A DNA stretch of 64,000 nt, taken from Magnetococcales bacterium (lineage in GTDB: Bacteria > Pseudomonadota > Magnetococcia > Magnetococcales > UBA8363). The stretch spans positions 1-64,000 of the forward strand of contig PEAK01000004.1 of the NCBI GenBank assembly GCA_002753515.1, read 5' to 3'. This document shows, piece by piece, positions 24,363 to 47,547 of this stretch. Under the pieces are notes generated by a model. That model saw nothing but the letters and a program-made list of their open reading frames with translations. It did no database searches and was not told where the DNA came from. Positions within the stretch are counted from its first letter, which is position 1; the number at the start of each line of letters is the position of its first letter. A program made the translations under genes and the position numbers.

Positions 24363-24669
24363 CATGGGATGGTGTTGTATTTCCCCCGATCGGCATGCTG
24401 ACATGATATGGCGGGGGATGACGTTCATTTCTTATGTTGCCAATGGCATAGTCAATGCTCCAAAATCATGGACAATCATGCAATGGAACCGTTTTGGCTT
24501 TGATTCTTTTGTCCAATGGGCGTAATGTCCACTTGCTAGAATGTCGTGTTTTTGTTTGAAACTGCGCAGTTCTTGGTTGTGTGGTCTCGTGTTCGTGCCT
24601 TGTTACCCATCGGGTACGCTTCTATCGCAAGGTGCTGACGATGGGAAACATAATGTCAGGAGATGCCCG
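24363..24669. other. Region upstream of the RfaH-type gene
   Basis: Holds a seven-bp inverted repeat (TCCCCCG at 24382 / CGGGGGA at 24412) with no T run, possibly a weak terminator or processing hairpin. I see no well-spaced promoter, though one must lie here or upstream. Confidence 0.35.
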
Positions 24670-25227
24670 TTGAATTCCGTGCCAACAGATTCTTCTTCCA
24701 CAGAAAAATGGTATGTTATCCGTACTAAGCCACGTCAGGAACACGTGGCGGTACGTAATCTTGAGGACCAGGGATATCACTGTTTTTTTCCCAGAATTCA
24801 AGCGCGGCGTACACGGCGGACCAAGCGAGTGTTCCTATTGGAGCCTTTTTTCACCAGTTATCTTTTTGTCCATTTGGATCTGGATCAGGTCAATACCGCG
24901 CCGATCCGTTCAACCCCGGGGGTGGCGGGTTTTGTGCGTTTTGGCAGCTATGTACCGCCAGTCAGCGACGAACTGGTCAATGATTTGATTGAGCGAGCAG
25001 ACGAGAACGGTGTTTTGTCCCTGCCGGAACCAGATTTTTTGCCTGGCCAGGTTGTGACGATTATGGACGGACCCATCGCTGGATATGAAGCCATTTTTCA
25101 GAGCAGAAACGGTCATGATCGTGCGATGCTCTTGATTGGAATGCTTGGCGGAGAAATCAAAGTTCAAGTCCCTGTCGCCGTACTTAGCCCCCAGCCGACG
25201 CTGAAAAATTGTGATGCCATTCCTTGA
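24670..25227 (+). CDS. rfaH: RfaH-type transcription antitermination factor (NusG paralogue)
   Basis: 185 residues from TTG 24670, set by AGGAG seven nt upstream; the track start at 24541 adds an atypical 43-residue leader. The NGN domain reads EKWYVIRTKPRQEHVAV, FFPRI, FTSYLFVHLDLD and IRSTPGVAGFVRFG. The KOW domain reads PGQVVTIMDGPIAGYEAIFQSR and MLLIGMLGGEIKVQV, the pattern of RfaH-like specialised NusG proteins. Known role: loads onto RNA polymerase paused at ops sites and suppresses termination in long surface-polysaccharide operons. An exact ops sequence lies 245 nt downstream of this gene. Confidence 0.92.
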   Translation: MNSVPTDSSSTEKWYVIRTKPRQEHVAVRNLEDQGYHCFFPRIQARRTRRTKRVFLLEPFFTSYLFVHLDLDQVNTAPIRSTPGVAGFVRFGSYVPPVSDELVNDLIERADENGVLSLPEPDFLPGQVVTIMDGPIAGYEAIFQSRNGHDRAMLLIGMLGGEIKVQVPVAVLSPQPTLKNCDAIP

Positions 25228-25253
25228 CATGATGAACAGATTGCTGGTATATT
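25224..25253 (+). promoter_or_regulatory. Sigma-70 promoter for the polysaccharide operon leader
   Basis: TTGACA (25224-25229) and TATATT (25248-25253) are separated by 18 nt. The -35 overlaps the stop codon of the RfaH-type gene. Transcription would start near 25260 and pass the ops site after roughly 215 nt. Confidence 0.65.
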
Positions 25254-25793
25254 TAACGTTTGCCAGTACGCAATTTACATATTTTTTATTTTCAAGCGAT
25301 GAGTTTTGTTTAATAATCTTAATGTCTAAACAAGAGCGACAGCGTATTAAGTTGGTAAAATCGTTCGCCTTGACCCCTAAGAAGTACATGGGGGAAGTTT
25401 GAAGTTATAGTGATTTTACAGAGATTTTCTTAACTATCCCACGTAACTGCACTTGCCGAACTGATGCAGTATGGCGGTAGCGTGCCTGAGACACTGGTTT
25501 GTTTCGCATATTAAGAGGAGTGCCCCTCAGTTATAATTCGGAATAAAAAGAACGGAGTCTATTTTTTTTATTAGTTTTGCTTAATCGTTGTAACAAAAAA
25601 TACATTGAAATACGTGCTTTAAATTTGAGCGAAAGTGCTATTGTTTGCGAAATATTCAATATAATGGGTGCGGTAAATCCATCAACTACAGTAGCTATGA
25701 ACCCACAGGTTATGATGAATAAGCGCTGTCTCACCAATACCGATTTTCAATAAACCACCGCCCCATGAAGAGTGACTCTCAAATATTTTCTGT
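25254..25793 (+). other. Long untranslated leader before rfbB
   Basis: About 540 nt, AT-rich and without a supported gene, between the predicted promoter and rfbB. Besides ops I see only short T runs that might act as intrinsic stops (for example around 25560-25570). The leader length fits antiterminator-controlled operons. Confidence 0.5.
25473..25484 (+). promoter_or_regulatory. ops element (RfaH loading/pause site)
   Basis: GGCGGTAGCGTG is an exact match to the 12-nt operon polarity suppressor consensus of enterobacterial RfaH operons. It lies on the coding strand in a gene-free leader, between the RfaH-type gene and rfbB, downstream of a good promoter. CCTGAG follows, recalling the 3' part of JUMPstart. 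Confidence 0.85.
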
Positions 25794-26861
25794 ATGAAAA
25801 CCGTCTTCATCACTGGAGGCGCTGGCTTCATCGGCTCTGCGTTGGTGCGTCTTTTGATTGCCGAAGGCAACTGGAGGATCGTTAATATCGACAAACTGAC
25901 CTACGCCGGTAACCTGGAGTCATTGGCCTCGGTTTCCGACTCCCCGCGATATTGCTTTGTCCACGCAGATATCTGTGACCGTGCTACCATGAATATCCTG
26001 TTCTCCGAGCATCAACCTGATGGTATTATCCATCTTGCCGCCGAATCCCACGTTGATCGCTCCATTCACGGACCCGGAGATTTCGTCCAGACCAATATTA
26101 CCGGCACCTATACCTTGCTCGAAGTTGCCAGGGGCTACTGGTCCGGTCTCTCGGGTGAAGCGAAGTCCCAGTTCCGTTTTCACCATGTATCTACCGATGA
26201 AGTCTATGGATCTTTGGGGGAAACCGGACTCTTCACCGAAATTACTCCCTATCAACCCAACTCTCCGTATTCGGCTTCCAAAGCTGCTTCCGACCATCTT
26301 GTTCGTGCTTGGCACCATACCTATGGGTTTCCAGTCGTAACCACCAATTGCTCCAACAATTACGGTCCTTGCCAATTTCCGGAAAAGCTCATTCCCCTGA
26401 TGATCCACAACGCCGTCAGCGGTAAGCCATTACCCATTTATGGCAAAGGGGACAACATTCGCGACTGGCTTTATGTTGATGATCACGTACGCGCCCTGTG
26501 CCTTGTTTTTGAAAAAGGAACTTTGGGCGAGGTCTATAATATCGGTGGCCATAACGAAAAGACCAACCTGGAGGTTGTCGATACCCTCTGCGCCCTTCTG
26601 GATGAACTTTGTCCCAGGGCAGATGGCCTACACTATAGTGCCCTCAAGACCTATGTTGCTGATCGCCCCGGTCACGACAAACGTTACGCCATTGACGCCA
26701 GCAAAATTGGTCGTGATCTGGGCTGGAAGCCGCAGGAAACTTTTGAGACCGGGCTCAAGAAAACCGTCCAGTGGTACCTCGATAACCCCAAGTGGGTCGC
26801 TCGCGTTGTCTCCGGTGAATACAAAACCTGGACCGACAAGAATTATGGGAGCCGAGTATGA
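25794..26861 (+). CDS. rfbB: dTDP-glucose 4,6-dehydratase
   Basis: A 355-residue extended SDR enzyme making dTDP-4-keto-6-deoxy-D-glucose. The NAD motif is [14 protein letters not shown], the active site has [10 protein letters not shown] and [12 protein letters not shown], and [19 protein letters not shown] and [16 protein letters not shown] are family signatures. First gene after the ops leader. Its stop overlaps rfbA (ATGA). Confidence 0.97.
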
Positions 26862-27769
26862 AACGCAAAGGTCTCATCCTCGCGGGCGGGTCTGGCAGCC
26901 GACTGCATCCGGTGACCCTAGCTGTTTCCAAGCAATTGCTGCCGGTGTACGACAAGCCAATGATCTACTACCCGCTGACCACACTCATGCTGGCCGGGAT
27001 CCAGGATATCCTGCTCATCTCCACCCCGCAAGATACCCCTCGCTATCAGCAACTATTGGGGGATGGCAGTCAATGGGGAATCAACCTTCAATACGCCGTC
27101 CAACCCAGACCGGATGGACTGGCGCAGGCCTTCATCGTTGGCCGGGAGTTCGTTGGTAATAATCTCAGCGCCCTGATACTTGGCGACAATCTATTTTATG
27201 GTCATGATTTTGCGGATCAACTGCAGTCAGCGGCAAAAGTTGACGTAACCGATAGGAATCCCCATGAGGCAGTGGGTGCTACAGTATTCGCGTATGCTGT
27301 GAGAGACCCGGAACGTTATGGTGTTGTTGCCTTTGACGCAACCGGCAGGGCGATCAGCATTGAAGAGAAACCCAAGCAGCCCAAGTCACGTTATGCGGTC
27401 GTAGGTCTTTATTTCTACGATCAGCAAGTCTGCGATATTGCCAAGAATCTGAAACCATCCCCTCGTGGTGAGTTGGAGATCACTGACGTCAACCGGGTGT
27501 ATTTGGAGAAAGGTCAACTCCGGGTTGAAATTATGGGTCGGGGAATGGCCTGGCTGGATACGGGTACGCACGAGTCTTTACTTGCCGCAAGTCATTTTAT
27601 CCAGACGATCGAAACCCGTCAGGGGCTCAAAGTGGCTTGTCCGGAAGAGGTGGCTTGGCGGCAGAAATGGATCGATGATGACAAACTTGCCCGGTTGGCG
27701 GAGCCATTGGCCAAGAGCCAGTATGGAAAATATCTGCATGGCCTTCTCTATGATAAGGTGTATGGATGA
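26858..27769 (+). CDS. rfbA: Glucose-1-phosphate thymidylyltransferase
   Basis: 303 residues, forming dTDP-glucose from glucose-1-phosphate and dTTP. The nucleotide loop is [13 protein letters not shown], where Ser replaces the usual Thr of [34 protein letters not shown] and [11 protein letters not shown] are conserved. It overlaps rfbB by four bases and rfbC by four bases, indicating a tight operon. Confidence 0.97.
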
Positions 27770-28308
27770 AGGCTATTCCAAGTGCTATCCGGGATGTGAT
27801 CCTGCTTGAACCGAAAATTTTTGGTGACGAACGCGGCTATTTTTACGAGAGTTGGAACCATCGTACGTTGAAAGAACTCGGTATCGAAGCGAACTTTGTG
27901 CAAGACAATCACAGTAAGTCGGTCAAAAACGTGCTGCGAGGGCTGCACTATCAGATCAAGAATCCACAGGGGAAGTTGGTGCGGGTGATTGCCGGTGAGG
28001 TCTACGATGTGGCGGTGGACTTGCGTAAGTCGTCATCAACATTTGGTCAATACGTTGGCTTCACGCTTTCCGTGGAAAACAAACGCATGGCGTGGATTCC
28101 GCCAGGATTTGCTCATGGTTTTTGTGTAACCTCCGAGTCTGCTGAATTCCTCTATAAGACGACCGACTTTTGGTTTCCAGAGTTTGAGCGTACACTGTTG
28201 TGGAACGATCCTTATCTGAAAATTGATTGGCCTCTAACAGTACCTCCGGAACTGGCCGCAAAAGATGCAAATGGCGTCCAATTTGTGGATTGTGAAACGT
28301 ATGACTAA
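27766..28308 (+). CDS. rfbC: dTDP-4-dehydrorhamnose 3,5-epimerase
   Basis: A 180-residue cupin-fold epimerase. [13 protein letters not shown], the catalytic His in [18 protein letters not shown], and [12 protein letters not shown] are present. Length is typical. It converts the rfbB product before reduction by RfbD, which is encoded 4 kb upstream on the other strand. Gene-dense organisation stops here and a scarred region follows. Confidence 0.97.
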
Positions 28309-28939
28309 ATGAAAGATCCTGCGGCATTCGCTGTATCATGTGTATGCTGGAGTGGATGACGTTCAAGTATTGGAAAAACAAAATTTTCGATTAGATATAA
28401 ACCACGCCCAGATTGAAATTTGTAGTTCTTTTTTTTCGGACGTGGCATCCTTCAACAACTTGTAATTTCGGAAAAATGGTGCACCTGGTAAAGGTCAACC
28501 TCGTTGGTTGGAACCAATCGCCGGATGATTTTCGGATTCTGTCATTAAATATTTGGACCCGGTAGATTTTATACTGAGGAAGAGCTACCCACTGTTTCTT
28601 GCTAGGGAGGCTATTAACGAAATGTTTGGCCTCGTGAACAGGGGTGTTTTAAACCTCAAGGTACCGATTGAAACGGAGGTGGTCAATGCTGGGGAGCAAA
28701 TCGCCGAGGGATAAATTGTTTGGGTTCATAGAGTCGATATATAATGCGAGAGGAGAGGAGGCATCACATCTGCATTCCACCCATCGGATAGTTACCCAAA
28801 ATTCCTTATAAAACGCAGTCCGACGATTTAAGAGGGCGTCAGGAATGCAGCTAATAGTGATTTGTTCGCGATGGCTGTTTGTAACATTCATGCTGAAGCA
28901 GCACAAAAATCTCTGAAGCCTATTGCTTAACGCGCCAAG
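28309..28939. other. Decayed intergenic region without supported genes
   Basis: About 630 nt with frequent stops in all frames. I cannot identify the parent sequences, although short stretches look like worn coding DNA. A 22-nt stretch near 28364 (AGTATTGGAAAAACAAAATTTT) nearly repeats one near 30390. It leads into the degenerate intron end. Confidence 0.45.
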
Positions 28940-29049: not shown

Positions 29050-29868
29050 ATGATTAGATATATTGCAAATAAAATACACTGGATATTATCAAGTCAGTTT
29101 GGATTTGATTTTCTAAAATTTATGAAATCAGTGCGTGGATTGCCTATATTTCTACGGGATTGGATAATATTCCGAAAAAGGTTTGATGGGAATATGAGAT
29201 TCATGCCCTGTTTGCATGACCGCTATGAGGAAGGTGGTACAACCAAGAGTGAATATTTCTGGCAGGATTTGTCAGTTGCGCAGGCTATTTATGCTGCAAA
29301 TCCAATTAAACATGTAGATATTGGTTCGAGGATAGACGGTTTTGTAGCGCATATTGCCAGTTTTCGCAATTGTGAGGTTTTCGATATACGGCCTGTCAGC
29401 ACGATAATCCCCGGCGTAGTGTTCTGTCAGGCCGACCTGATGGCGTCAGAGCCGCTGCCGATGGCTGAAGATGGTGGTTATTGCGATTCGCTATCATGCT
29501 TGCATGCGATTGAGCACTTTGGCCTTGGTCGCTATGGTGACAAGCTTGATCCAAAAGGGTATCAGCAAGGAATTGGCAATATGGCCTTACTATTACGGCC
29601 TGGAGGAACATTTTATCTTTCTACTCCAATTGGACATGAGAGAGTTGAGTTTAATGCGAATTGGGTATTTGAACCTCTAACAATAGTTCGCTGTGCCGAA
29701 GGTTTTGGTTTAGCGTTAACAAAACTTATTGTAATTACTCCATTATATGGTGCCCAAGAGTCAGCAATTGATGTCGATACGTTAGCTAACCTAGCTACGG
29801 TGCGTTACCAACTCGGTTTATTTATTTTCACTAAAGAGGCTAAACTGCACCCAGCACGGGAAACGTAG
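29050..29868 (+). CDS. DUF268-like / SAM methyltransferase-like protein
   Basis: 272 residues. The centre reads HVDIGSRIDGFVAHI, FDIRPVSTIIPGVVFCQADLM and DSLSCLHAIEHFGLGRYGD, a pattern I associate with DUF268 proteins that share the class I methyltransferase fold and occur in polysaccharide loci. LLLRPGGTFYLSTPIG matches motif post III. The last eight residues or so (KLHPARET) and the stop codon lie inside the 150-bp repeat at 29841, so the native C-terminus has been replaced. Possibly still functional because the core fold is complete. Confidence 0.75.
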   Translation: MIRYIANKIHWILSSQFGFDFLKFMKSVRGLPIFLRDWIIFRKRFDGNMRFMPCLHDRYEEGGTTKSEYFWQDLSVAQAIYAANPIKHVDIGSRIDGFVAHIASFRNCEVFDIRPVSTIIPGVVFCQADLMASEPLPMAEDGGYCDSLSCLHAIEHFGLGRYGDKLDPKGYQQGIGNMALLLRPGGTFYLSTPIGHERVEFNANWVFEPLTIVRCAEGFGLALTKLIVITPLYGAQESAIDVDTLANLATVRYQLGLFIFTKEAKLHPARET

Positions 29869-29990
29869 TTTCCCGGCGTCATCCCCGCGAAAGCGGGGAT
29901 CCAGAAAGTCAGGGAAGGTAGAAAAGTCCTCTGGATCCCCGCTTTTGCGGGGATGACAATAACTACACATTCCAAGATAGCTGCGGTTTA
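29841..29990 (-). repeat. 150-bp palindromic MITE-like repeat, copy 1
   Basis: Starts TAAACTGCA, ends TGCGGTTTA. Two inner hairpins are built from GTCATCCCCGCGAAAGCGGGGATCC and GGATCCCCGCTTTTGCGGGGATGAC. The end reading ATTCCAAGATAGCTGCGGTTTA is on the right, opposite to copies 2 and 3. It overlaps the end of the DUF268-like gene. TA at both ends suggests a TA target duplication. Confidence 0.85.
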
Positions 29991-30223
29991 ACTATAAATC
30001 CAAACGCTTGATAGCTTGAAGTATCAGAAAGCAATTTATCCGACTCTGGCTGTGTTTTTGGTAGCTTTTGGCTTACAGTTTTTGCTTACGGTGTGATTTG
30101 ACGCTTCGTGGCGGAAGAATTCACTTGAAGAGTTCTGGACAGCGTGAAAAATGAACAAGAACCAACTTCAGGGCGAACTTCTCATGGGGTCACGGCATCA
30201 CCCGAAAATAAGGTTTTACCTAT
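29991..30223. other. Intergenic remnant without supported genes
   Basis: About 230 nt between the 150-bp repeat and the small 155-bp element. No frame, repeat or RNA recognised; the 70-residue ORF here runs into the element and is not credible. Confidence 0.4.
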
Positions 30224-30394
30224 TAAAGTATTTCGCTACCGGACACTTTTTCAAGTGGGTCATTTGTTTCCATTTTAATATCAACGCGTTGTCTTTCTGT
30301 GTGGGTGACCAAAAGCCTGATATCGGAAAACGGAACTATTTCAAGCTGTTAAGGCATTGCTAACCAAAAAAGTGTCCGGTAGTGGGTAAAGTAT
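30224..30394. mobile_element. 155-bp MITE-like element with 8-bp direct repeats
   Basis: CTACCGGACACTTTTT (30236-30251) and its exact complement AAAAAGTGTCCGGTAG (30367-30382) form 16-bp inverted repeats. Four nt outside each, TAAAGTAT occurs directly repeated (30224-30231 and 30387-30394), consistent with an 8-bp target duplication. The interior codes for nothing. The parent insertion sequence is not identified. Confidence 0.7.
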
Positions 30395-30593
30395 CTGAAA
30401 AACAAAATTTTATAACAGATCTGATCATGGAAAACAAAATAAACTATATGCCGATGCTCACAGGGGAAATCGGTCGGTTTGGATCTCATGCGCATGCTAT
30501 AAGGTTGAATGGACTTGATTTTTGGGTTTTGCCTTTGATTCCGGTTTTGACTTTTTTTTGCCCGAAGGGTATCATACTTTTGCATCCTAAGGC

Positions 30594-31240
30594 GTTGCAC
30601 CAGCACGGTGAGAGTCCGTGCCATGGCTTGCCACAGCCATGTAACTGAAGGTAATTGCGTAGCCGTGAGGCTGGGTGGGGAGCAACCGGAAGCGAACTAT
30701 CGGTCCGTAGGATGACGAACTCGATTCGGCGGGGTGTTGCGGCGAACCTGTACATGTATGGCGAAGCCTGGAATTAATCGATCACGCTGTTGTTGGCGGA
30801 TAAAGCGGTGATCGGGCGCACTTTGTAATTGGAGGTGGAACGATGGGAAGATGCGGCGTTTAAGCAGGGATACCTGGGATGTGTAGATTTAACCCCAGGA
30901 GTCAGAACACTTATAGTACCGCAAATGGGTTATATCTATGGAAAAGCGCTGGTTAGCAAAGCCGCGCCGAGGGAAGGGGGGTAGAAAAGTGGTTACTTTA
31001 TGTTGGAAAGGCGCAAAAGAAGTCCCGTAGTGCGGTCTCTGCTATTACGCGGGGCAGGGTCTCCCGAACCAGTGTGGGGAAGGAGAGAAGCGTCAATCCT
31101 ATCAGAGGGTATGATGGCAAAACCGGTAACGGGGTTTGTTTGATTCCGTCCCTGGTGATGAAACCACCAACAGGAGAGCCGTGTGCGGGAGAACTGCTTG
31201 CACGGTTCGGAGGGAGGGGAGACGAAATCTTCCCTACCCC
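30594..31240 (+). mobile_element. ORF-less group II intron (remnant)
   Basis: Domain V is clear: GAGCCGTGTGCGGGAG at 31176 pairing with GCACGGTTC, followed by a domain VI hairpin (GGAGGGAGGGG...TCCCTACCCC). Upstream, GCACGGTGAGAGTCCGTGCC and GTAACTGAAGGTAATTGCG resemble domain I parts of bacterial introns. The whole is only about 650 nt, so the reverse transcriptase/maturase ORF is absent. The 5' boundary is approximate; no GTGYG start was found. It lies in the same orientation as the operon, 57 nt before rfbF. Confidence 0.75.
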
Positions 31241-31296
31241 TGTTCAGATTGAATGGATCGAGCAACAATTGAGCTTCAAGCAAATTGGAAATATCA

Positions 31297-32070
31297 ATGA
31301 AAGCTGTTATTCTCGCAGGTGGTCTTGGTACACGTATATCCGAGGAAACCCATCTTAAACCCAAGCCCATGATCGAAATCGGTGGCAGGCCAATTTTGTG
31401 GCACATCATGAAAATCTATTCGTCGCATGGCGTGCATGACTTCATCGTATGTTGTGGCTACAAGGGTTACCTGATCAAGGAATACTTTGCCAACTATTTC
31501 TTGCACATGTCTGATGTTACCTTCGATATGACGCACAACCGGATGGAAGTCCACCACAAAAAGAGTGAGCCATGGCGTGTGACACTGGTGGATACTGGCG
31601 ACGAAACCATGACGGGTGGCCGACTCAAGCGTGTTTCAGGCTTTATCAAGGATGAAGAATTTTTTTTCTTTACTTATGGTGATGGTGTCTCGGATATCAA
31701 TATTACGATGCAAATCGCCTTTCACCGCCATCACCATAAGTTGGCTACCGTGACCGCTGTGCAACCGCCTGGTCGTTATGGTGCATTGGTCCGAGAAGGT
31801 ACCACCGTATTTGGTTTTCAGGAAAAACCCCCCGGTGATGGTGCGTGGATCAATGGCGGCTTCTTTGTTCTCAATCCGAAGGTGATCGACTTTATCGAAG
31901 GCGACCAAAGTATATGGGAGGGCAACCCTTTGGGAACACTTGCTGCTCAAGGCCAGCTTGAAGCCTTTGAACATAGGGGATTTTGGCAGCCGATGGATAC
32001 CTTGCGAGACAAGACGCATCTCGAAGAACTTTGGAATACCGGCAATGCTCCATGGAAATCCTGGGAGTGA
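31297..32070 (+). CDS. rfbF: Glucose-1-phosphate cytidylyltransferase
   Basis: 257 residues from ATG 31297; the track's TTG 31285 is four codons earlier and less likely. It makes CDP-glucose. [37 protein letters not shown] is the nucleotidyltransferase entry, and [19 protein letters not shown] and [12 protein letters not shown] are typical of RfbF. The next gene uses the product and overlaps this one. Confidence 0.96.
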
Positions 32071-33146
32071 GGCTGTTTGCTGACATATATCGTGGCAAGC
32101 GAGTCCTTGTAACTGGGCACACCGGATTCAAAGGTAGCTGGCTCACGCTTTGGTTACATGAATTGGGTGCAGAGGTTACCGGCGTATCCTTGCCGCCCGA
32201 TGCACAATCTAATCACTGGAACCTGCTTCAGCAGCCTATCGACGACCATCACCTTGACATTCGCGATATCGTAAAGCTTCAGCAGGTATTCAAAGAAAAA
32301 CCACCTGAAATTGTTTTCCACCTTGCTGCCCAACCTCTGGTTCGACGTTCGTATCGTGATCCGCTGGAAACTTGGTCTACCAACGTTATGGGCACGGCCA
32401 ACATATTGGAGGCATGTCGCCAAACATCTGAGGTGCGGGCCATTGTTGCCATTACAACCGACAAATGTTATGAAAATTGTGAATGGCCATGGGGCTATCG
32501 CGAGAATGATCGCTTGGGTGGGCACGACCCCTACAGTGCATCGAAGGCAGGGGCGGAACTGGTTGCTGCGAGTTATCGCAGTGCATTTTTCAATACAGAA
32601 ACAGCACCTTTGTTGGCGACAGCAAGGGCTGGCAACGTTATAGGTGGGGGCGACTGGTCTGAAGACCGCCTCATACCTGATCTGATTCGTGCGCTTGAAC
32701 GGCAACAGTCTCTCGAAATTCGCTCGCCCCATGCCACACGTCCGTGGCAGCATGTGTTAGAGTCCTTGAGTGGCTATCTGATGTTGGGGCAGAAACTGCT
32801 TGCGGGTGATAAGAATTTTGCTGAAGCTTGGAATTTCGGTCCAGAGCTGGAAGGCAACCGAACGGTATCCGAAATACTTGGCAAGTTAAACCTCCGGTGG
32901 GAGAATATGCGCTGGCATATCACTGAAAGACCACAGCCTCATGAAGCCATATTGCTCTATCTTGACAGTTCCAAGGCACGAAGTCGTTTGCACTGGCAAC
33001 CTGTTTGGAACATAGACACCACGTTGGAAAAAACAGCGGAATGGTACCGGGTTTGGTTGCAATTTGGGCAAATCATCAGTCGCCAGCAATTAACTGATTA
33101 TATCTCCTCTGCCGTCCAAGGCGATATTGAGTGGGCAAAGCTGTAA
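32052..33146 (+). CDS. rfbG: CDP-glucose 4,6-dehydratase
   Basis: An extended SDR of about 364 residues making CDP-4-keto-6-deoxyglucose. [16 protein letters not shown], the NAD-binding entry peculiar to RfbG, comes first. [17 protein letters not shown] and [13 protein letters not shown] hold the catalytic Tyr/Lys. ATG 32052 overlaps rfbF by 19 nt. GTG 32067 ([11 protein letters not shown]) overlaps by four (GTGA) and gives a length closer to relatives, so it may be the true start. Downstream enzymes for CDP-dideoxysugars are missing; only an epimerase fragment follows. Confidence 0.95.
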
Positions 33147-33148
33147 AT

Positions 33149-33337
33149 ATGCAGCCAACGCCCTTATTTGTTTTCAAGGTGGTTGATACCTCTACCTCTA
33201 AAAATATTCGCAGCACATTCGCCCGTCTCTATTGCGAGCGTGAATTGGGTCATGTTATCGGACCGCGTCGCATTGTGAAAATTAACCTTGCGCGTACCAC
33301 CATGGCTTGTGGTGTTCGCAAGGTTTACCTACGGTAG
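33149..33337 (+). pseudogene. Truncated dTDP/CDP-sugar 3,5-epimerase family gene
   Basis: The 62-residue frame MQPTPLFVFKVVDTS... matches the N-terminal third of RmlC-like epimerases: VVDTS, FARLYCERELGHVIG, RRIVKIN, and VRKVYLR standing where VRGLHYQ with the catalytic His would be. The His is lost, the frame stops at once, and the remaining two thirds are gone or unreadable up to 33459. Its place after rfbFG suggests it once epimerised the CDP-4-keto-6-deoxy sugar. Confidence 0.7.
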
Positions 33338-33459
33338 TATGTGGCCATGCACGAATGGGTGCATATCCTCCAGAAAGTGATGCTGAAATTCCCCGGAATT
33401 TTATGCGGCGTCACACGATTTGCAACATGAGCGCAAATCACCAAACATGGTAATTGATA

Positions 33460-34167
33460 ATGCTTGAATCTAAAAATGAATTTGAACGCCAAGCATGGCT
33501 GAAGGCAACTCTTGCTGCCTTAATGCCAGGATTGAAAATTTTGGACGCAGGTGCAGGTGAACTGAAAAATAGGAGATATTGTGAGCATCTGGAGTACATC
33601 TCTCAAGATTTTTGTCAATATAAAGGAATTTCGGGGGGGGGGGAATGCGAAGGTTTGCAGTCAATGGAATGGGATACCTCACGGATTGATTTGGTATGCG
33701 ACATCACCGCGATACCCGCACCAAATGGTAGTTTTGATGCCATTCTTTGTAGCGAGGTACTGGAACATATTCCCGAACCAACCCACGCCCTGGACGAATT
33801 TTCTCGGTTACTGAAACCTGGTGGATACTTAATCTTGACTGCTCCATTCGCCTCCAACGTCCATATGGCACCCTACTATTTTTGTAGCGGATTCTCAAAG
33901 TATTGGTATCAGTATCATTTGGTGAAAAAAGGTTTTAAGATCATAGAAATTACCAGCCATGGTGATTGGTTTTCATTATTGGAGCAGGAAATCATGCGTT
34001 TAGGTGGTTTAGAGAGGCAGCGTGGTAATTGGATATGGCCATTGGCTTATATTTATGCGTTGTTAGGAGTTATTTACTTTAAGATTCGCTTCAAGAAAAG
34101 AGCCGAAGATATTGCCAGTTTTGGTTGGCATGTGGTTGCGCAGAAACTTGATAATAATATAAACTAA
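33460..34167 (+). CDS. SAM-dependent methyltransferase, class I, with 11-G tract
   Basis: 235 residues from ATG 33460. ILDAGAGELKNRRYC is motif I, DLVCDITAIPAPNGSFDAILCSEVLEHIPEP covers motifs II-III, and FSRLLKPGGYLILTAPF is the post-motif. A C-terminal hydrophobic stretch (IWPLAYIYALLGVIYFKI) may associate with the membrane. It probably methylates a sugar or glycan end. Codons 58-61 contain a run of eleven G (33633-33643), a candidate slippage site in an active frame. Confidence 0.85.
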   Translation: MLESKNEFERQAWLKATLAALMPGLKILDAGAGELKNRRYCEHLEYISQDFCQYKGISGGGECEGLQSMEWDTSRIDLVCDITAIPAPNGSFDAILCSEVLEHIPEPTHALDEFSRLLKPGGYLILTAPFASNVHMAPYYFCSGFSKYWYQYHLVKKGFKIIEITSHGDWFSLLEQEIMRLGGLERQRGNWIWPLAYIYALLGVIYFKIRFKKRAEDIASFGWHVVAQKLDNNIN

Positions 34168-34197
34168 TAACATTTCATAGTTGGAGTGATTGGTTGA

Positions 34198-35022
34198 ATG
34201 ATTAATAAAATTATAAAACAACTTGTCGAGGAATTTCCGAAATTAGCTCAATTCTACCGCAGCAGTAGAGATCAAATGGATAGAAATCAACCTGCAATAC
34301 GAACGCCATGGGGATTTAAATTTTCTGGGCATGTTGCTATGGCGCAAGGAAAATTTGAACCAGAAGAGACTGAAATAATAAGAAAACTCCTTCGCGATGT
34401 CGATATCTTTGTAAATATTGGTGCAAATGTTGGTTATTACTGCTGCCACGCTCTCAGTATGGGAAAGCCCGTTATCGCCATTGAGCCCATTGCAAGGAAT
34501 CTTCATTATCTCATGCGTAACATTCAGGAAAATGGTTGGTCAGAAAGTGTTCAGATATTTCCCGTCGCACTTGGTGCAAAGGCAAATATCATGAAGATGT
34601 GGGGGGGAAGTACAGGTGCATCAATGGTTAAAGGTTGGGCAGAGATTCCCGAATCATATGTTACGCAGGTTCCCGTTCTTACGCTGGATTGTATTCTTCA
34701 AGGTAATACCCTGGTAGATGGAAAAAGAGTGTTAATGCTCGTTGATGTAGAAGGTGCGGAATATGCATTGTTGCAAGGTGCTGCACAAAGTCTCTGCCTT
34801 GAACCGAGGCCGATCTGGATGGTAGAAATTGGTTCAACGATGCATCAACCCGAAGGCGTGAAAGTGAATCCGCATTTGGTACCAACTTTTGAGATGTTTT
34901 TTAAACAAGGATATGTTGCTACAACTGCAGACTCTGTTCAGGTGTCGGTTGATTCTAAATATGTACATGCTGTATCTGAGGGCACTTCTGAATTTTCAAC
35001 TCATAATTTTTTATTCAAGTAG
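34198..35022 (+). CDS. FkbM-family methyltransferase
   Basis: 274 residues. FVNIGANVGYYCCHAL is the FkbM motif I variant, KPVIAIEPIARNLHYLMRNIQENG motif II, and LVDVEGAEYALLQGAA the FkbM-specific DVEGxE box. These enzymes O-methylate sugars or polyketides. Base composition is AT-rich like its neighbours. It starts 30 nt after the previous methyltransferase. Confidence 0.9.
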   Translation: MINKIIKQLVEEFPKLAQFYRSSRDQMDRNQPAIRTPWGFKFSGHVAMAQGKFEPEETEIIRKLLRDVDIFVNIGANVGYYCCHALSMGKPVIAIEPIARNLHYLMRNIQENGWSESVQIFPVALGAKANIMKMWGGSTGASMVKGWAEIPESYVTQVPVLTLDCILQGNTLVDGKRVLMLVDVEGAEYALLQGAAQSLCLEPRPIWMVEIGSTMHQPEGVKVNPHLVPTFEMFFKQGYVATTADSVQVSVDSKYVHAVSEGTSEFSTHNFLFK

Positions 35023-35569
35023 CCCTTGTAATTATGGATGCTATCCATCAAGGGATGATTTTGTTGTGCAATTTCAGCTAATATCCTGTGATGCAGGCAA
35101 TTTTAGCGACTCTGAACATCCATCGGACAATTGACATCACACACCCTAGTTAACATTATCTAAGCATTCGCATTAAATATATTTTGTCCACAAAATATCT
35201 CGCTCATGATAGGAAGGTAATGAAGATGGTAGAATTTTAGTATGTACTCTTGGAGTAATTTGAATAAGTATTGGAAAATTATATTGTATACGGAGTGGAG
35301 GATCATTTCTTAATCTTTTCTAGTGCATTTACTATGGCATCCAGTATCCATTGAGATCAGGCTATCAGTGGGAGTGGTTTAACGTGTTAGCGTGGCGTTT
35401 CAATGAATTCATTGCTTCGGTTCTATACACAACGATGTTTATTTAAGCACGGCAGATTGCATTTGCTCTGCTAGTTAACGAATGAACATTCAATAATCGC
35501 ATTCACCATTGAGATTTCAACAAATCTTGCCCTTCTGGAGTTAAAAATGTAAAGGAGGAAATTTATAAT
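35023..35569. other. AT-rich gene-free stretch
   Basis: About 550 nt without a plausible frame, before repeat copy 2 and the Wzy-like gene. No clear promoter. Probably eroded or spacer DNA from locus rearrangement. Confidence 0.4.
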
Positions 35570-35719
35570 TAAACCGCAGCTATCTTGGAATGTGCAGTTA
35601 TTGTCATCCCCGCGAAAGCGGGGATCCAGAGAACCTTCCTACTTTCCCTGATTTTCTGGATTCCCGCTTTCGCGGGAATGACGCAGGAAAACTACGTATC
35701 CCGCGATGGTTGCGGTTTA
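35570..35719 (+). repeat. 150-bp palindromic MITE-like repeat, copy 2
   Basis: Begins TAAACCGCAGCTATCTTGG and ends GATGGTTGCGGTTTA. Inner hairpins carry GTCATCCCCGCGAAAGCGGGGATCC and GGATTCCCGCTTTCGCGGGAATGAC. Same orientation as copy 3. Located 91 nt before the Wzy-like gene. Confidence 0.88.
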
Positions 35720-35810
35720 GATTGTGATAACGTTAAATGAATACATGATCTTAACGAATAATTGTAGAAGCTTGATATATAATATAATTGAAAAAGTGAT
35801 TGAGATGTAA

Positions 35811-37274
35811 ATGACGGCGCTATCCTTTATATTATTTGCTATGATTGGGGTGATTTCCGTAGTGCTTTTTTTCAATGGCATTTATTATCCCATCTGGCTA
35901 TCGTCACTGATTTTGTTTATTGAAACATCTTTATTAGTATGGCAGTATCGTCAGAACAGGCTCGGAGTGTTAATGCTTTTGATGTGGTTGGTATATGCAC
36001 TTCCGTTTATACATATTCCACCATATATTTTGTTTGATTTTAATAGTGATCCAGTTTTGCTTTGGGGGTTGACAGTAAACCCATATATGGTTGATGAAAG
36101 GGTAATTCAATTAACAGGTATGATAGGTGCGGTTGGTGGTATTGGTTTTGTATTGGGAGTTACTTTCCGTAGCAGGAAAGTACATCGCGACCTGGGACAA
36201 AATCCTGATGGAAGCCGACGCGTTTTTCGTACCATGGCAATGCAATTATGGTTAGTTTGGGTAGTCATTGGCGTTATTCTTTCCGCTTTGAGTGCTCCAC
36301 AGGAAACCATCTTAACTACGAGTTACACGGGATCCAAGCCTGTTCTTGAAAATTTTGGTTCAGCGTGGATGATTTCATATATTATTCTGAGTTTTGCATA
36401 TTCCGACGCTCTGCTTGAAAATAATTTATCTGTGAAAAATAAAAAGAAATATATAATATTTATTGCCATAATAATTACTATAATATTCTTCAATTTAATG
36501 AGGGGAAAACGTGATTCTGTGCCCTGGGTGTTTGGATTGGCACTAATTAATTATTATTGGGCTGCAGGGATTACACAACGTCGAGATTTCACCTTACCAT
36601 GGATGAAGCTTTCAATAGTAGCGTTTTTATTGGTCTGTTTAAGCTTAATTCTAGGAATACTGCGAACCGAGTTGGCAGGTGTATCTTTATCCGATGCTGC
36701 GACTTTGATCGAGAGCTTATATGAATCTGAAAGGATTGGTTTAGCTGACCTACTTCATGGTACATGGTCTGCTGTATTGCTTACGCCATTGTCGGTGTCA
36801 GGTGATCATATCTATGACTTGTTGAAATTAGGCTTGGGACAGGATTATCTTGATTTGTTACTCTCTACAATTCCCGGATTTGTAGCCGATGCAATAGGCT
36901 ATATCCGCCCGATTGATGGGGCACACGGCCCCTCCTGGGAAATGCGATATGGGCTGGGTGGAACCCATGCTACGGTTGTTCCGTTCATGAACTTTAGAAT
37001 GATTGGCGTATTGCTCATTCCCGCAATTTGGTCATTTTATCTTTGTAATTTTGAAAAGTCCGTGCTTACAAAAATTGATGTGATTAGATTGAGTTTTTTA
37101 GTTTCGCTCGCCTTGGCGGCACCCCAATGGCTATGGTATGGTGAGAAGAGCGGCTTAAATGCTGTGGTAATATGGATAATTCTTTCCTTTTTCTACCGAG
37201 TATCACTTGGTTTAACACGTTCGTCGAGAATGAATTTTAATATGATGACAACGCGTGAGTGTAAAAATGCGTGA
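35811..37274 (+). CDS. Polytopic membrane protein, putative O-antigen polymerase (Wzy-like)
   Basis: 487 residues with about eleven hydrophobic segments and larger hydrophilic loops (about residues 120-145 and 290-385). Wzy proteins are poorly conserved; the call rests on topology, on a large loop (GLGQDYLDLLLSTIPGFVADAIG, GGTHATVVPFMNF) and on the setting among glycosyltransferases. No Wzx flippase or ABC exporter is seen in the window. Very AT-rich, with AAATAAAAAGAAATATATAA stretches, unlike the flanking housekeeping genes. Confidence 0.65.
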   Translation: MTALSFILFAMIGVISVVLFFNGIYYPIWLSSLILFIETSLLVWQYRQNRLGVLMLLMWLVYALPFIHIPPYILFDFNSDPVLLWGLTVNPYMVDERVIQLTGMIGAVGGIGFVLGVTFRSRKVHRDLGQNPDGSRRVFRTMAMQLWLVWVVIGVILSALSAPQETILTTSYTGSKPVLENFGSAWMISYIILSFAYSDALLENNLSVKNKKKYIIFIAIIITIIFFNLMRGKRDSVPWVFGLALINYYWAAGITQRRDFTLPWMKLSIVAFLLVCLSLILGILRTELAGVSLSDAATLIESLYESERIGLADLLHGTWSAVLLTPLSVSGDHIYDLLKLGLGQDYLDLLLSTIPGFVADAIGYIRPIDGAHGPSWEMRYGLGGTHATVVPFMNFRMIGVLLIPAIWSFYLCNFEKSVLTKIDVIRLSFLVSLALAAPQWLWYGEKSGLNAVVIWIILSFFYRVSLGLTRSSRMNFNMMTTRECKNA

Positions 37275-38160
37275 TTCAAGGGTTATCACACGTATTTTCG
37301 GTGGCCTTGGCAACCAGCTTTTTTGTTATGGTGCCGCCAGACGACTTGCCTTAGTTAACAATGCTGAACTGGTTATCGATGATGTCAGTGGCTTTGTCCA
37401 TGATACTGCTTATCAACGACATTACCAGTTGGATCACTTTGCAATAGCCAGTCGAAAGGCCACACCAGCCGAGAGGTTAGAGCCGTTTTCTAAGCTTCGT
37501 CGCATACTCAAAAAAAAGTGGAATAAGCGTTTATCCTTTGAACAGCGTAATTATTTGGTCCAAGAAAGTGTAGATTATGATTCACGTCTACTGCACTTCA
37601 AACCTCAGGGCACGGTCTATTTGGAAGGATATTGGCAAAGCGAGGGATATTTCAAGGATATAGAAGCTACCATCCGCGAAGACCTTAAGATAAAGCCGCC
37701 GAACGATGATGCTAATATTGCTCTAGCAAAACAGATACTTAACTGTACGTCGGTCGCAGTGCATGTTCGATTCTTTGATGAGCCTTACGGCGATGCCTTC
37801 AATAACGCTCCTGGCGACTACTATACACGTGCTATTGGATTTATGGAATACCATGCACCAGGTGCGCATTACTTCATTTTTTCAGATCAGGTTGATGCCG
37901 CTCGCACCAATATCAACCTTCCTGATGCTCGAATTACTTTGGTGGCGCATAATCATGGTGATGAACACGCTTATGCTGATCTATGGTTAATGACATTATG
38001 TCAGCACTTTATTATTGCTAATAGTACTTTTAGTTGGTGGGGTGCATGGCTTGCGGCAAATTCTACAAAGATGGTCATTGTACCGGGATATGAAAAGCGT
38101 GATGGGAAAATGTGGTGGGGATTTAAGGGATTGTTGCCTGATTCATGGATAAAATTATAA
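37267..38160 (+). CDS. Glycosyltransferase family 11 (alpha-1,2-fucosyltransferase type)
   Basis: 297 residues from ATG 37267, which overlaps the Wzy-like stop; GTG 37255 is an alternative. IFGGLGNQLFCYGAARRLA is the GT11 N-terminal signature and ANSTFSWWGAWLA the C-terminal one. The HxRRxD motif is AVHVRFFDE, with both its second Arg and the usual spacing altered. It would transfer L-fucose or a related 6-deoxysugar. No GDP-fucose genes are in the window, so the donor may be another 6-deoxysugar. Confidence 0.88.
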   Translation: MRDSRVITRIFGGLGNQLFCYGAARRLALVNNAELVIDDVSGFVHDTAYQRHYQLDHFAIASRKATPAERLEPFSKLRRILKKKWNKRLSFEQRNYLVQESVDYDSRLLHFKPQGTVYLEGYWQSEGYFKDIEATIREDLKIKPPNDDANIALAKQILNCTSVAVHVRFFDEPYGDAFNNAPGDYYTRAIGFMEYHAPGAHYFIFSDQVDAARTNINLPDARITLVAHNHGDEHAYADLWLMTLCQHFIIANSTFSWWGAWLAANSTKMVIVPGYEKRDGKMWWGFKGLLPDSWIKL

Positions 38161-38173
38161 TGATACAAGAAAA

Positions 38174-39211
38174 ATGAAAATATTAGTAGTGGGTGATGGG
38201 CGTTCGACTATTCACGAAGTTGCTGTAGTTGCAGCCTTCAAAAAGTTGGGGCATCATGTTGAGCCATTTTACTGGCAATCCTATTTTGTTTCTCGATACC
38301 CATTGGTACGTCTGTGGCTTCGGTTCCAAAATAAGTTTCTTATTGGCCCAACTCTAATTAAATTAAATTCAGACCTGATCAAAATGGCTGATCAGTTTGA
38401 GCCTAGGTTAGTATTTGTCTACCGTGGTACGCATATTACGCCACAAACTATCACCGAAATTAAACGAAGATTGCCTGACTGCATGGTTTATGGTTATAAT
38501 AATGATGATCCTTTTGCAACCGGACATCCTCCATGGCTTTGGAGGAATTTTCTACAATGTGTGCCCATTTATGATATAGTATTTTCTTATCGCAAGCACA
38601 ATATTCCTGAATATAGCGAGTATGATGCGCAAAGAGTTGAGCTATTAATGCCATGGTTTAATCCAGCGAAGGATTTTCCGAGAGCGTTAGGCGTGCCTCA
38701 TAATGACAAATTCGATGTCATATTTGTTGGTCATTATGAAAATGATGATAGGATTGACCACATAAAGCGAATTGCTGAAAGCAACATTATTTTTGGCCTT
38801 TTTGGACCTGATTGGGAGCGTGCGCCAAAATTGGATTGGTTGGAGAAATATCTGCCTATCATACCAGTTAGAGATCAATTGTACCGCGAAACTATTATCC
38901 AGTCAAAGATTGCACTCTGTTTTCTATCAAAACTAAACCGTGACACCTACACAAGGCGTTGTTTTGAGATCCCAGCTATGGGAGTGTTTATGCTTTGCCA
39001 ATATTCTGAAGATTTATCTCACTTATTTGAAGATGGTGTTGATGTTGTTTTTTTTCACAATCCCGACGATATGATGGAAAAAATTGACTTTTATATGCGC
39101 CATAGCAAGTTGCGTGAACAAATTTCAGAAAATGGCTTAATGCGTGTAATTCGTGATAAACATGATATAATTTCGCGTATGGATTATGTATTAAATTTCT
39201 TGAAAAGGTAG
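38174..39211 (+). CDS. CgeB-like glycosyltransferase
   Basis: 345 residues. VYGYNNDDPFATGHPPWLW and YDIVFSYRKHNIPEY match the N-terminal DUF3880-like half, and VIFVGHYENDDRIDHIKRI with RRCFEIPAMGVFMLCQYSEDL the GT1-like C-terminal half of CgeB-type proteins. Function would be sugar transfer in glycan assembly. Starts 13 nt after the GT11 gene. Confidence 0.8.
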   Translation: MKILVVGDGRSTIHEVAVVAAFKKLGHHVEPFYWQSYFVSRYPLVRLWLRFQNKFLIGPTLIKLNSDLIKMADQFEPRLVFVYRGTHITPQTITEIKRRLPDCMVYGYNNDDPFATGHPPWLWRNFLQCVPIYDIVFSYRKHNIPEYSEYDAQRVELLMPWFNPAKDFPRALGVPHNDKFDVIFVGHYENDDRIDHIKRIAESNIIFGLFGPDWERAPKLDWLEKYLPIIPVRDQLYRETIIQSKIALCFLSKLNRDTYTRRCFEIPAMGVFMLCQYSEDLSHLFEDGVDVVFFHNPDDMMEKIDFYMRHSKLREQISENGLMRVIRDKHDIISRMDYVLNFLKR

Positions 39212-39218
39212 ATTCAAC

Positions 39219-40061
39219 GTGGAAGTAATAATAAAAAGAATAATGTGGTCGCTACGCCGTTTGAATTTGAGAATCCCTCATCATGCACTGGTTCTGGAGG
39301 TGGGTTCTGGAGGAAATCCTTACCCGAGGGCCAATGTACTCTTGGATGCTTATGAAGAGACGCGAGAGCGGCACTGGGATGCTCTAGTTCATGATCGCCA
39401 AACTGTTTTGTCATTTGGCGAGAACCTACCATTCAAAGATAAAGCTTTTGATTATGTAATTGCTGCACATGTTTTGGAACACACACCTTATCCAGAGAAA
39501 TTCTTGGCTGAGTTGCAGCGCGTAGCGCGAGCTGGCTATATTGAAACACCGGATGCTTTTATGGAACGAATTAATCCCTATAGGGATCATAGGCTTGAGG
39601 TCACAGTGCGGGATGATGGTTTGGTTATTCGCAAAAAACCTGCATGGATCTATGACGCTGACTTAGTTGAACTCTATGAAGATCGTGCAAAATCCATTAT
39701 TACTCGTGAGACTATACCATGGCATGCTGATGATTTTCATATGCGTTATTTTTGGCAAGATACAATTAAGTATACTATCATTAATCCTGAGGTGGATGCG
39801 GCCTGGGTGCCGCCATTTTCTTTACCTGATCTCTCAGTTCAAAAAATGGGTAAGAAAGCCATATTTCGATTGTTGATGCTAAATATTATTAGGAGAATGT
39901 TTTCTCAAAATAGTAGGAATGCTAAACTGGATATAGTGCCATTAATGCGTTGCCCAAAATGTTATTTATCTGATCTTAAGCGGGCTTCTGAGTATGATAT
40001 TTTTTGTAGGGTGTGTGGGGTGAAGTATAAAATAGATCGTAATATTTACCATGTATACTAA
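39219..40061 (+). CDS. Methyltransferase with C-terminal Trm112-like zinc ribbon
   Basis: 280 residues. VLEVGSGGNPYPRANVLLD is motif I, PFKDKAFDYVIAAHVLEHTPYPEKFLAEL motifs II-III of class I methyltransferases. The C-terminal 40 residues carry RCPKCYLSDL and FCRVCGVKYKID, a two-CxxC ribbon like Trm112 that usually activates or binds methyltransferases, here fused in one chain. Start GTG 39219; ATG 39243 possible. Confidence 0.82.
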   Translation: MEVIIKRIMWSLRRLNLRIPHHALVLEVGSGGNPYPRANVLLDAYEETRERHWDALVHDRQTVLSFGENLPFKDKAFDYVIAAHVLEHTPYPEKFLAELQRVARAGYIETPDAFMERINPYRDHRLEVTVRDDGLVIRKKPAWIYDADLVELYEDRAKSIITRETIPWHADDFHMRYFWQDTIKYTIINPEVDAAWVPPFSLPDLSVQKMGKKAIFRLLMLNIIRRMFSQNSRNAKLDIVPLMRCPKCYLSDLKRASEYDIFCRVCGVKYKIDRNIYHVY

Positions 40062-40074
40062 TTGGTTTTGATTC

Positions 40075-41100
40075 ATGAATGCGCCATTTCTTTCCGTCTG
40101 TATTCCAAGCTATAACAGGCCTAAACAGATTGAGAATCTACTTGCTTCTATAGATTGTAATCCAGATGATATTGAGGTTGTTATTTGTGAGGACCATGCG
40201 CCCAAACGGCTTGAGGTGCGTGCTATTGTCAATGCGTTTGCTGATAATTCTTCTTATACAACGCACTATCATGAAAATACGATCAATCGTGGTTTCGATG
40301 GTAATATACGTCGCTTGGTCGAGTGTGCTTCAGGTGAGTATGTTATGTTCATGGGAGACGATGATTTATTTGTGCCAAACGCATTAAATAATTTCATTGA
40401 TTTTCTTAAAAAGAATCGTGACAAACCCTATGTACTACGAACATATTTAACCGAACATCCTGATGGAAGTATAGAATATTTCCGTTATTTGCCAAAGACT
40501 TCATTATTGAATCGTGGCGAGGCCACAGTTTCGTGGCTTTTCAAGCGCAGCGTAACTATTTGTGGGTTTACAGTGTCAAGGTCTGAAGCGCTGAAATATT
40601 CAACTGATGAGTTGGATGGCACATTGCTCTATCAGGTTTATCTCATGGCGCAGGTGTGTTTACGGCATGATGCAATTTATTGTGATATTCCAGTTGTCCA
40701 TGCAGTACAGACGTTTCGTGATGATATACAAATGTTTGGATCATCTGAAGCTGAAAAGAGTCGCTTTACGCCTGGCAGTGTTTCCCACGACAATTCAATT
40801 AATTTTACCTTAGCGTATTTTGAGGTTACTGCGTATCTGGATAAGCAGCATGGGACGAATCTTACCAAACTAGTACGTTTTGACCTTTCTAAATATTCGT
40901 ACCCGTTTCTTTCCATTCAGCGTAAGCGAGGCATTCCTTCATTTCTGAGCTATGCCAAGCGCCTGGAAAATGAGGCGGGTTTTGGTTGCACTTCTTATTA
41001 TTATATTTACAAATGGGCTTTGGTGCTGCTTGGAGAGAAAACATGTGATCGGATTATTGCTGGTATCAAGCGTGTTCTTGGGCATACGCCAAATTTTTAA
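40075..41100 (+). CDS. Glycosyltransferase family 2
   Basis: 341 residues, GT-A fold. LSVCIPSYNRPKQIENLLASI is the N-terminal nucleotide-sugar site, GFDGNIRRLVECASGEYVMFMGDDDLF includes a DDD metal site, and a long C-terminal part follows (SRFTPGSVSHDNSI). Acceptor and donor cannot be read. 34 nt separate it from asnB. Confidence 0.9.
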   Translation: MNAPFLSVCIPSYNRPKQIENLLASIDCNPDDIEVVICEDHAPKRLEVRAIVNAFADNSSYTTHYHENTINRGFDGNIRRLVECASGEYVMFMGDDDLFVPNALNNFIDFLKKNRDKPYVLRTYLTEHPDGSIEYFRYLPKTSLLNRGEATVSWLFKRSVTICGFTVSRSEALKYSTDELDGTLLYQVYLMAQVCLRHDAIYCDIPVVHAVQTFRDDIQMFGSSEAEKSRFTPGSVSHDNSINFTLAYFEVTAYLDKQHGTNLTKLVRFDLSKYSYPFLSIQRKRGIPSFLSYAKRLENEAGFGCTSYYYIYKWALVLLGEKTCDRIIAGIKRVLGHTPNF

Positions 41101-41134
41101 TATTGTATATAGATAATATTGGTAGATCTTTGCA

Positions 41135-42997: not shown

Positions 42998-43059
42998 TGC
43001 TGGTGGAGATCGTTTGTGAAAACTGAATTGCTCGAACTGCTACGTTTCCCGAGAAAGTG

Positions 43060-44226
43060 ATGTCTGCTAAAAAAATAACGATCGGGATTGACGCTGCCAA
43101 TTTGCGTCGTGGTGGCGGCGTAACCCATTTGGTGGAACTGCTTCGCGCAGCACAACCCTTGCAACTAGGTATTGAGCGTGTTGTGGTCTGGGGGGGGGCG
43201 ACTACGCTCAACATAGTGGATGATCGACCATGGATCGACAAACATAATCCACCTGCATTGGGTAAAGGTCTGCTCCATCGCACTCTTTGGCAACGTTATA
43301 GTTTGTCGCAAGCAGCTCGGGATACTGGATGCGATGTTCTTTTTGTGCCAGGTGGCAGCTATGCAGGGAATTTCCATCCGGTGGTTACGATGAGTCAAAA
43401 TCTTCTTCCATTTGAGCTGACGGAATTGTGGCGTTATGGCTGGTCTATGTTTACGCTCAAGTTGTTGTTGTTGCGATGGACGCAGTCGCGTTCCTATCAT
43501 AAAGCGGATGGACTGATTTTTTTGACGGATTATGCGCGTCGGGTAGTTTTGGATGTTACAGGTGACTTGCATTGTAAAACCTGCACCATTCCCCATGGGT
43601 TGAATCCGCGTTTCAATCAAGCGCCAAGATTGCAGCGCACCATCGAAAGTTATGATGATGCAAATCCGTATCGGTTATTGTACGTTTCAATCATTGATCA
43701 CTATAAACATCAGTGGGTTGTCGTAGAAGCTGTAGCTGCTTTGCGCAAGCAGGGTTTTCCTGTGGTACTGGATTTGGTCGGACCGGCTTATCCATCTGCG
43801 CTCAAGCGATTGAATGAAACCGTTGATCGTCTGGATAATGCTCGGCTTTGGGTTCGTTATCACGGTGCAATACCTTTTGATGAATTGCACCTTCAATATG
43901 CGCAGGCAGATTTGGGGTTGTTCGCATCAAGTTGTGAGAATATGCCGAACATCCTTATGGAAACCATGGCTTCAGGATTACCCATCGCCTGCTCAAACCG
44001 AGGTCCGATGACGGAAGTCTTGGGTACAGGTGGCATTTATTTTGACCCGGAAAATTCGGAGGATATGAGTCGTGCCTTGCATAAAATAATTACGTCTCCT
44101 CACTTGCGTGCTGAGTTGGCTCAAGTGAGTTACCAACGGGCGCAGCAGTATTCGTGGCAACGCTGTGCCGATGAGACATTTCAATTTTTGGTTGCGGTCA
44201 CACAGCACAAAAGAGGAAATAATTGA
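43060..44226 (+). CDS. Glycosyltransferase family 4
   Basis: 388 residues from ATG 43060. GT-B fold: GIDAANLRRGGGVTHLVELL at the N-terminus, YRLLYVSIIDHYKHQWVVVEAVAAL in the middle and FASSCENMPNILMETMASGLPIACSNRGPMTEVL, the EP/EN-x7-E donor motif. A nine-G run (43190-43198) lies near codon 44, early enough that slippage would truncate the enzyme. Its TGA overlaps the next ATG (TGATG). Confidence 0.9.
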   Translation: MSAKKITIGIDAANLRRGGGVTHLVELLRAAQPLQLGIERVVVWGGATTLNIVDDRPWIDKHNPPALGKGLLHRTLWQRYSLSQAARDTGCDVLFVPGGSYAGNFHPVVTMSQNLLPFELTELWRYGWSMFTLKLLLLRWTQSRSYHKADGLIFLTDYARRVVLDVTGDLHCKTCTIPHGLNPRFNQAPRLQRTIESYDDANPYRLLYVSIIDHYKHQWVVVEAVAALRKQGFPVVLDLVGPAYPSALKRLNETVDRLDNARLWVRYHGAIPFDELHLQYAQADLGLFASSCENMPNILMETMASGLPIACSNRGPMTEVLGTGGIYFDPENSEDMSRALHKIITSPHLRAELAQVSYQRAQQYSWQRCADETFQFLVAVTQHKRGNN

Positions 44227-45254: not shown

Positions 45255-45259
45255 AGCCG

Positions 45260-46402: not shown

Positions 46403-46403
46403 A

Positions 46404-47534: not shown

Positions 47535-47547
47535 TGGTCCGTGGTCC

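Follow-up and report, generated by a model that had tools for sequence, protein, structure and literature searches.

RfaH of E. coli is encoded away from its targets (hly, rfa/waa, rfb and tra) and reaches them through ops, a 12-nucleotide site in their non-coding leaders. The protein contacts ops through K10, H20, R23 and R73 (PMC5995543), all by their side chains, and its targets lack a Shine-Dalgarno sequence (PMC7819879). A conserved stem-loop is part of the JUMPstart elements of Gammaproteobacteria, as described by Weinberg and colleagues (PMC2864571). Several specialised NusG paralogues are encoded within or beside their own operons, including UpxY of Bacteroides, LoaP, TaA and ActX, the last two of which we compare by published descriptions alone. 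RfaH proteins of groups CL2-CL8 (Wang et al. 2020, PMC7593976) and the monomorphic RfaH proteins (PMC13015549) likewise lie beside envelope or polysaccharide operons; the portions of these two papers available to us mention no ops separating the gene from the operon, and they describe recruitment as unknown or ops-independent. For specialised NusG paralogues other than E. coli RfaH, a 2019 review states that there was no information on recruitment (PMC6391919).

The locus described here lies in a 64,000-nucleotide stretch of DNA from a Magnetococcales bacterium (contig PEAK01000004.1), called the window below. On its + strand, an rfaH-type gene (24670-25227) is followed by an exact ops element, GGCGGTAGCGTG (25473-25484), and then by a run of polysaccharide genes that begins at 25794. 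The ops element is 245 nt past the rfaH stop codon and 309 nt ahead of rmlB, in a gene-free, AT-rich leader of 566 nt (37% GC) in which no open frame of more than 41 codons covers it. It is the sole match to GGCGGTAGCNTG at fewer than two mismatches within the window. A motif scan together with TIGR01955, PDB and Pfam matches thus bears out the original prediction of an exact ops after an RfaH-like gene and before the rml genes, with regulator, cis site and target adjoining one another. That prediction had also set the linkage of gene and target against the unlinked rfaH of E. coli; the linkage is real, but it is not unusual, being found as well in RfaH CL2-CL8 (PMC7593976) and in most of the monomorphic RfaH clade (PMC13015549). 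An ops element between rfaH and the operon is what appears new relative to the literature available to us, and an earlier mention elsewhere is possible.

The presumed target begins with rmlB, rmlA and rmlC (25794-28308, + strand, by Pfam) and continues through polysaccharide genes of the same direction (29050-48738, + strand, by gene order, Pfam and low GC) that encode glycosyltransferases, methyltransferases, an AsnB-like protein and CapE/CapF/WecB-type proteins. The run extends over about 23 kb, all of its genes pointing one way, and has mostly 39-49% GC compared with 53-55% in the flanks. The one-directional order is observed, and we presume that it is read as a single transcript of more than 20 kb. 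The locus resembles E. coli RfaH/ops in protein family score, in an identical 12-nt site within a non-coding leader, in a long low-GC polysaccharide target, and in a first gene without a Shine-Dalgarno sequence, the last being weak evidence as start choices in this MAG are unverified. It differs in that the gene sits beside its target, in having one candidate site in the genome, and in the replacement of H20, R23 and R73 by N, D and P. Within the cluster, a 487-aa protein (35811-37274) has no Pfam match at E 0.001 and could, by its position, be a flippase or polymerase.

The product of the rfaH-type gene, a NusG paralogue of 185 aa, probably starts at the TTG at 24670, where AGGAG lies 7 nt upstream; this start agrees with the coordinate first proposed. 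The protein has a NusG N-terminal domain (Pfam), and its top PDB matches are E. coli RfaH structures (6e-22). Its TIGR01955 score is 144.4 bits by hmmscan, against a cut-off of 144.5, and 144.6 bits in a genome search that includes the neighbouring frame. Scores for UpxY (81 bits, cut-off 100) and LoaP (52 bits, cut-off 125) fall far below their cut-offs, and the NusG score is 47. A second NusG-domain gene in the same genome (G000:C11) is a separate housekeeping nusG. The closest named relative of the rfaH gene, in JADGCN010000092.1, is 93% identical. AlphaFold2, run on the window protein and two relatives (three sequences), gave a pLDDT of 45.7 and no usable model of the C-terminal fold. By family score the window protein is of the RfaH type, on the curated cut-off line, and it departs from the E. 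coli type in its DNA-reading residues.

The association of ops with rfaH recurs across the phylum. We collected RfaH homologues at E values up to 1e-20 from a sample of 399 genomes of the phylum and scanned the surroundings of 91 loci, counting families by the family codes of the genome set. The motif [GT]GCGG[TA]AGCNTG is present on the same strand within 600 bp downstream at 25 of the 91 loci, in 14 families, and exact GGCGGTAGCNTG at 15; linked ops is absent at the other 66. Over the same 91 loci, the opposite strand and the next 600 bp hold zero sites, and the stretches upstream of rfaH hold no exact copy and one with a single mismatch. Two thousand permuted motifs gave a mean of 0.015 loci and a maximum of 2. 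The mismatch distribution is two-humped: a locus has a site with 0-1 mismatch or, with few exceptions, nothing near it. A count made without any prior motif finds GCGGTAGCGT to be the commonest 10-mer in the downstream stretches, in 21 genomes. The leaders of the 25 loci are otherwise unlike one another, and those of their proteins that come from outside the order share 25-41% identity with that of the window. A conserved ops behind relatives of the gene, the absence of which the original prediction had named as grounds for its own refutation, is therefore found.

Wherever the sequence is long enough, ops and the first open frame that follows it share a strand. Twenty such first genes were tested, and nearly all are polysaccharide genes: seven encode a UDP-sugar dehydrogenase and four a Wza-type export protein, with Wzi, a Wzb-type phosphatase, an epimerase or nucleotidyltransferase, a Wzy-like protein and others among the remainder. 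The assignment is less certain for one radical-SAM protein and one porin-like protein. As judged from sequence, rfaH, ops and polysaccharide genes form a cis-linked module that recurs in at least 14 bacterial families; the window is an instance of it and extends RfaH/ops to Magnetococcales.

We propose that the locus is a self-contained RfaH/ops antitermination module that acts on the adjacent polysaccharide operon, a reading that the comparison among genomes supports well and to which we assign a probability of roughly 0.8. RNA polymerase would start in the leader, probably at a promoter on the rfaH stop codon, or would read through from rfaH. The candidate promoter (TTGACA-18-TATATT with an extended TG, 25224-25253, + strand) matches 11 of 12 positions in a consensus scan, overlaps the stop codon and is the best sigma-70-like candidate of the region; a congener (G001) keeps TTGACA and TAGAAT at the matching positions. 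The stretch from rfaH to rmlB showed no terminator-like site. Polymerase would then pause at ops, perhaps with the help of an immediately preceding RNA hairpin, and would expose on its surface the GGTA loop of the ops hairpin in the non-template strand. RfaH made from the neighbouring gene could bind there, displace NusG, exclude Rho and couple ribosomes, so that the 23-kb run, with its first gene lacking a Shine-Dalgarno sequence, would be expressed to its end. Pausing, binding, antitermination and ribosome recruitment are all inferred by analogy with E. coli RfaH.

The putative RNA hairpin of the window (stem ACTGCA / TGCAGT, 25446-25470, + strand) ends 2 nt before ops. Its folding by itself is weak (z about -1), so the case for it rests on position across 24 leaders. 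In nearly every leader a stem ends 0-3 nt upstream of ops; its sequence varies and its place is conserved. The stem score directly before ops averages 13.7, compared with 5.8 elsewhere in the same leaders (z 7.6). With a pause at ops position 11, the hairpin would sit at the usual pause-hairpin distance. The arrangement is like that of JUMPstart RNA (RF01707), which has a hairpin directly upstream of GCGGUAGCGUG in polysaccharide leaders, but the stem in the window has another sequence and loop, and its leader scores 16.9 bits against the Rfam model, below the 35-bit gathering cut-off. Among the other ops-linked loci, 4 of 13 pass this model.

The binding step of the proposed module meets an unexpected difference. 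At the four ops-contacting positions known from E. coli RfaH, the residues are K, N, D and P in the window protein, so that K10 alone is kept, and K, N, N and L in the protein of a genome from another family of the order (G043). With H20, R23 and R73 changed, binding of ops by the window protein is not assured; the 66 homologues with no linked ops, an rfaH of the window's genus that lacks the site (G005) and the family score on the cut-off line also weigh against the module. Of the 25 ops-linked proteins, 5 retain R23, 8 retain H20 and 12 retain R73, whereas Q24, T72, G74 and R138 are invariant. The autoinhibition positions E48, I93, F130, R138 and L142 read E, V, F, R and L in the window protein, I93V being conservative.

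These residues bear on the strongest alternative, in which the protein is a monomorphic, NusG-like RfaH recruited by its synthesis nearby, and ops is a pause site or relic that the protein does not read. The loss of H20, R23 and R73 would suit such a protein, as would the lack of E48 in 16 of the 25 ops-linked proteins, and PMC13015549 describes monomorphic homologues that lie beside long operons and are active without ops. However, the window protein keeps E48 and R138, and the central GCGG[TA]AGC, the part that RfaH reads, is as conserved across 14 families as the pause bases are. We consider this explanation unlikely.

In a second alternative, the protein works chiefly in trans and, like RfaH of E. 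coli, serves a number of operons, the nearby ops being one of many. In its favour, the window protein retains E48 and R138, by which the trans-acting E. coli protein is held in its autoinhibited state, but the genome (4.33 Mb, 97% complete) contains no second exact GGCGGTAGCGTG. Its three copies of GGCGGTAGCCTG are all inside open frames of 335-469 codons, and its other KGCGGWAGCNTG sites are in frames of at least 322 codons, except for one TGCGGTAGCGTG. That near-ops site (G000:C133:289) was set aside, as the 123-codon frame that contains it is close to the end of a contig and no recognisable target was seen with it. Throughout 48 Magnetococcales genomes, exact ops copies are fewer than those of a reversed control motif, and no genome-wide excess that would signal a trans regulon is seen in the window's own genome or in the 48. 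The signal is therefore the association with rfaH and not the count. The three exact copies behind rfaH (window, G001 and G043) are all non-coding; nearly all the others in the order are inside long ORFs, one being in a 129-codon frame of a genome with no detected rfaH. Predominantly trans action is, in our judgment, very improbable. A chance 12-mer without function could be argued from the 17 exact copies in the 48 genomes of the order, which are mostly coding. As an explanation for the ops of the window it is hardly credible, because the site recurs in 14 families at a matching position after rfaH, is absent from control stretches and is identical in G001 and G043.

Within Magnetococcales the gene is sporadic, being present in 5 of 48 genomes. 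The congener G001 shares an identical ops block with the window, the rest of its leader having diverged, and ops is kept in G043, where the leader is otherwise different. Two genomes have rfaH without ops. In G047 the contig ends 161 bp after the gene, and in G005, which belongs to the genus of the window, an opposed open frame lies behind it. The G005 protein (L070; G005:C140, 1812-2291) is 50% identical to that of the window and could be a natural unlinked or decaying case.

The suggestion that the cassette might be horizontally mobile is weakly supported. Similarity between the DNA of the window and that of G001 is limited to 24490-28310 (rfaH, leader and rmlBAC), at 91% identity, and outside this block the genes differ. 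This difference in flanks and the sporadic occurrence of rfaH speak for movement. However, the products identified, which cover part of the window genes, include no transposase or integrase with the block, and no attachment site was recognised there. The pattern fits an exchange of polysaccharide blocks by recombination. Among phage records, rfaH matches came only from Salmonella genomic contigs that had been deposited as phage. None of five rfaH loci on plasmids (Diaphorobacter, Agrobacterium, Marinobacter, Bradyrhizobium and Aestuarium) is closely followed by an ops with 1 mismatch or fewer; on the Agrobacterium plasmid, TGCGGTAGCTTG occurs 2.2 kb downstream. The conjugative plasmid pDCB1 of Diaphorobacter sp. 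JS3051 (L129) carries its own rfaH, without ops nearby, whose protein is 44% identical to that of the window. The polysaccharide block of pDCB1 contains FucNAc-type (CapE/CapF/WecB-type) genes with about 73% DNA identity to window positions 44316-48509, and rfaH is oppositely oriented.

The wide occurrence of linked ops is relevant to how RfaH recruitment arose. In the published view, ops reading and autoinhibition are placed late, and cis-encoded paralogues may be recruited by nearness (PMC7593976, PMC7819879, PMC6391919, PMC13015549); the late origin of ops reading is inferred in PMC7593976. In a quick maximum-likelihood tree, in which many inner forks are weak, ops-linked proteins are on every main branch, including the deepest, the unlinked enterobacterial type is nested, and the pattern calls for no fewer than 15 changes of state. 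This distribution favours an early, cis-linked ops, and repeated transfer could also lie behind it. The recurrent order of rfaH, ops and operon offers a concrete and cheap test both of the recruitment question and of late ops reading.

That ops is nearly unchanged despite the loss of reading residues could mean that an invariant core and backbone contacts read it, that another surface does, or that it is conserved mainly as a pause signal. This third reading is less probable, as the loop and stem bases of ops are as conserved as its pause bases. It is tempting to go further and suppose both that ops-dependent recruitment is ancestral to the RfaH family, having begun as a cis-linked module in the reverse of the published order, and that a core made up of Q24, T72, G74 and mostly K10 recognises the invariant ops hairpin and can do without H20, R23 and R73. 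We offer this combined proposal tentatively and put it at somewhat less than an even chance. The ops-linked proteins supply natural variants in which the DNA site is kept and the supposed reading residues are changed. At the eight loci where ops begins with T (TGCGGTAGC), R73 is found in none, compared with 12 of 17 for those with G at this position; these loci share clades, so no covariation is claimed. Two further ops-linked loci (L078 and L083, in G341 and G233) have GGCGGAAGCGTG, in which the flipped-out base T6 is changed to A, and their RfaH proteins could reveal a joint change of site and reading pocket.
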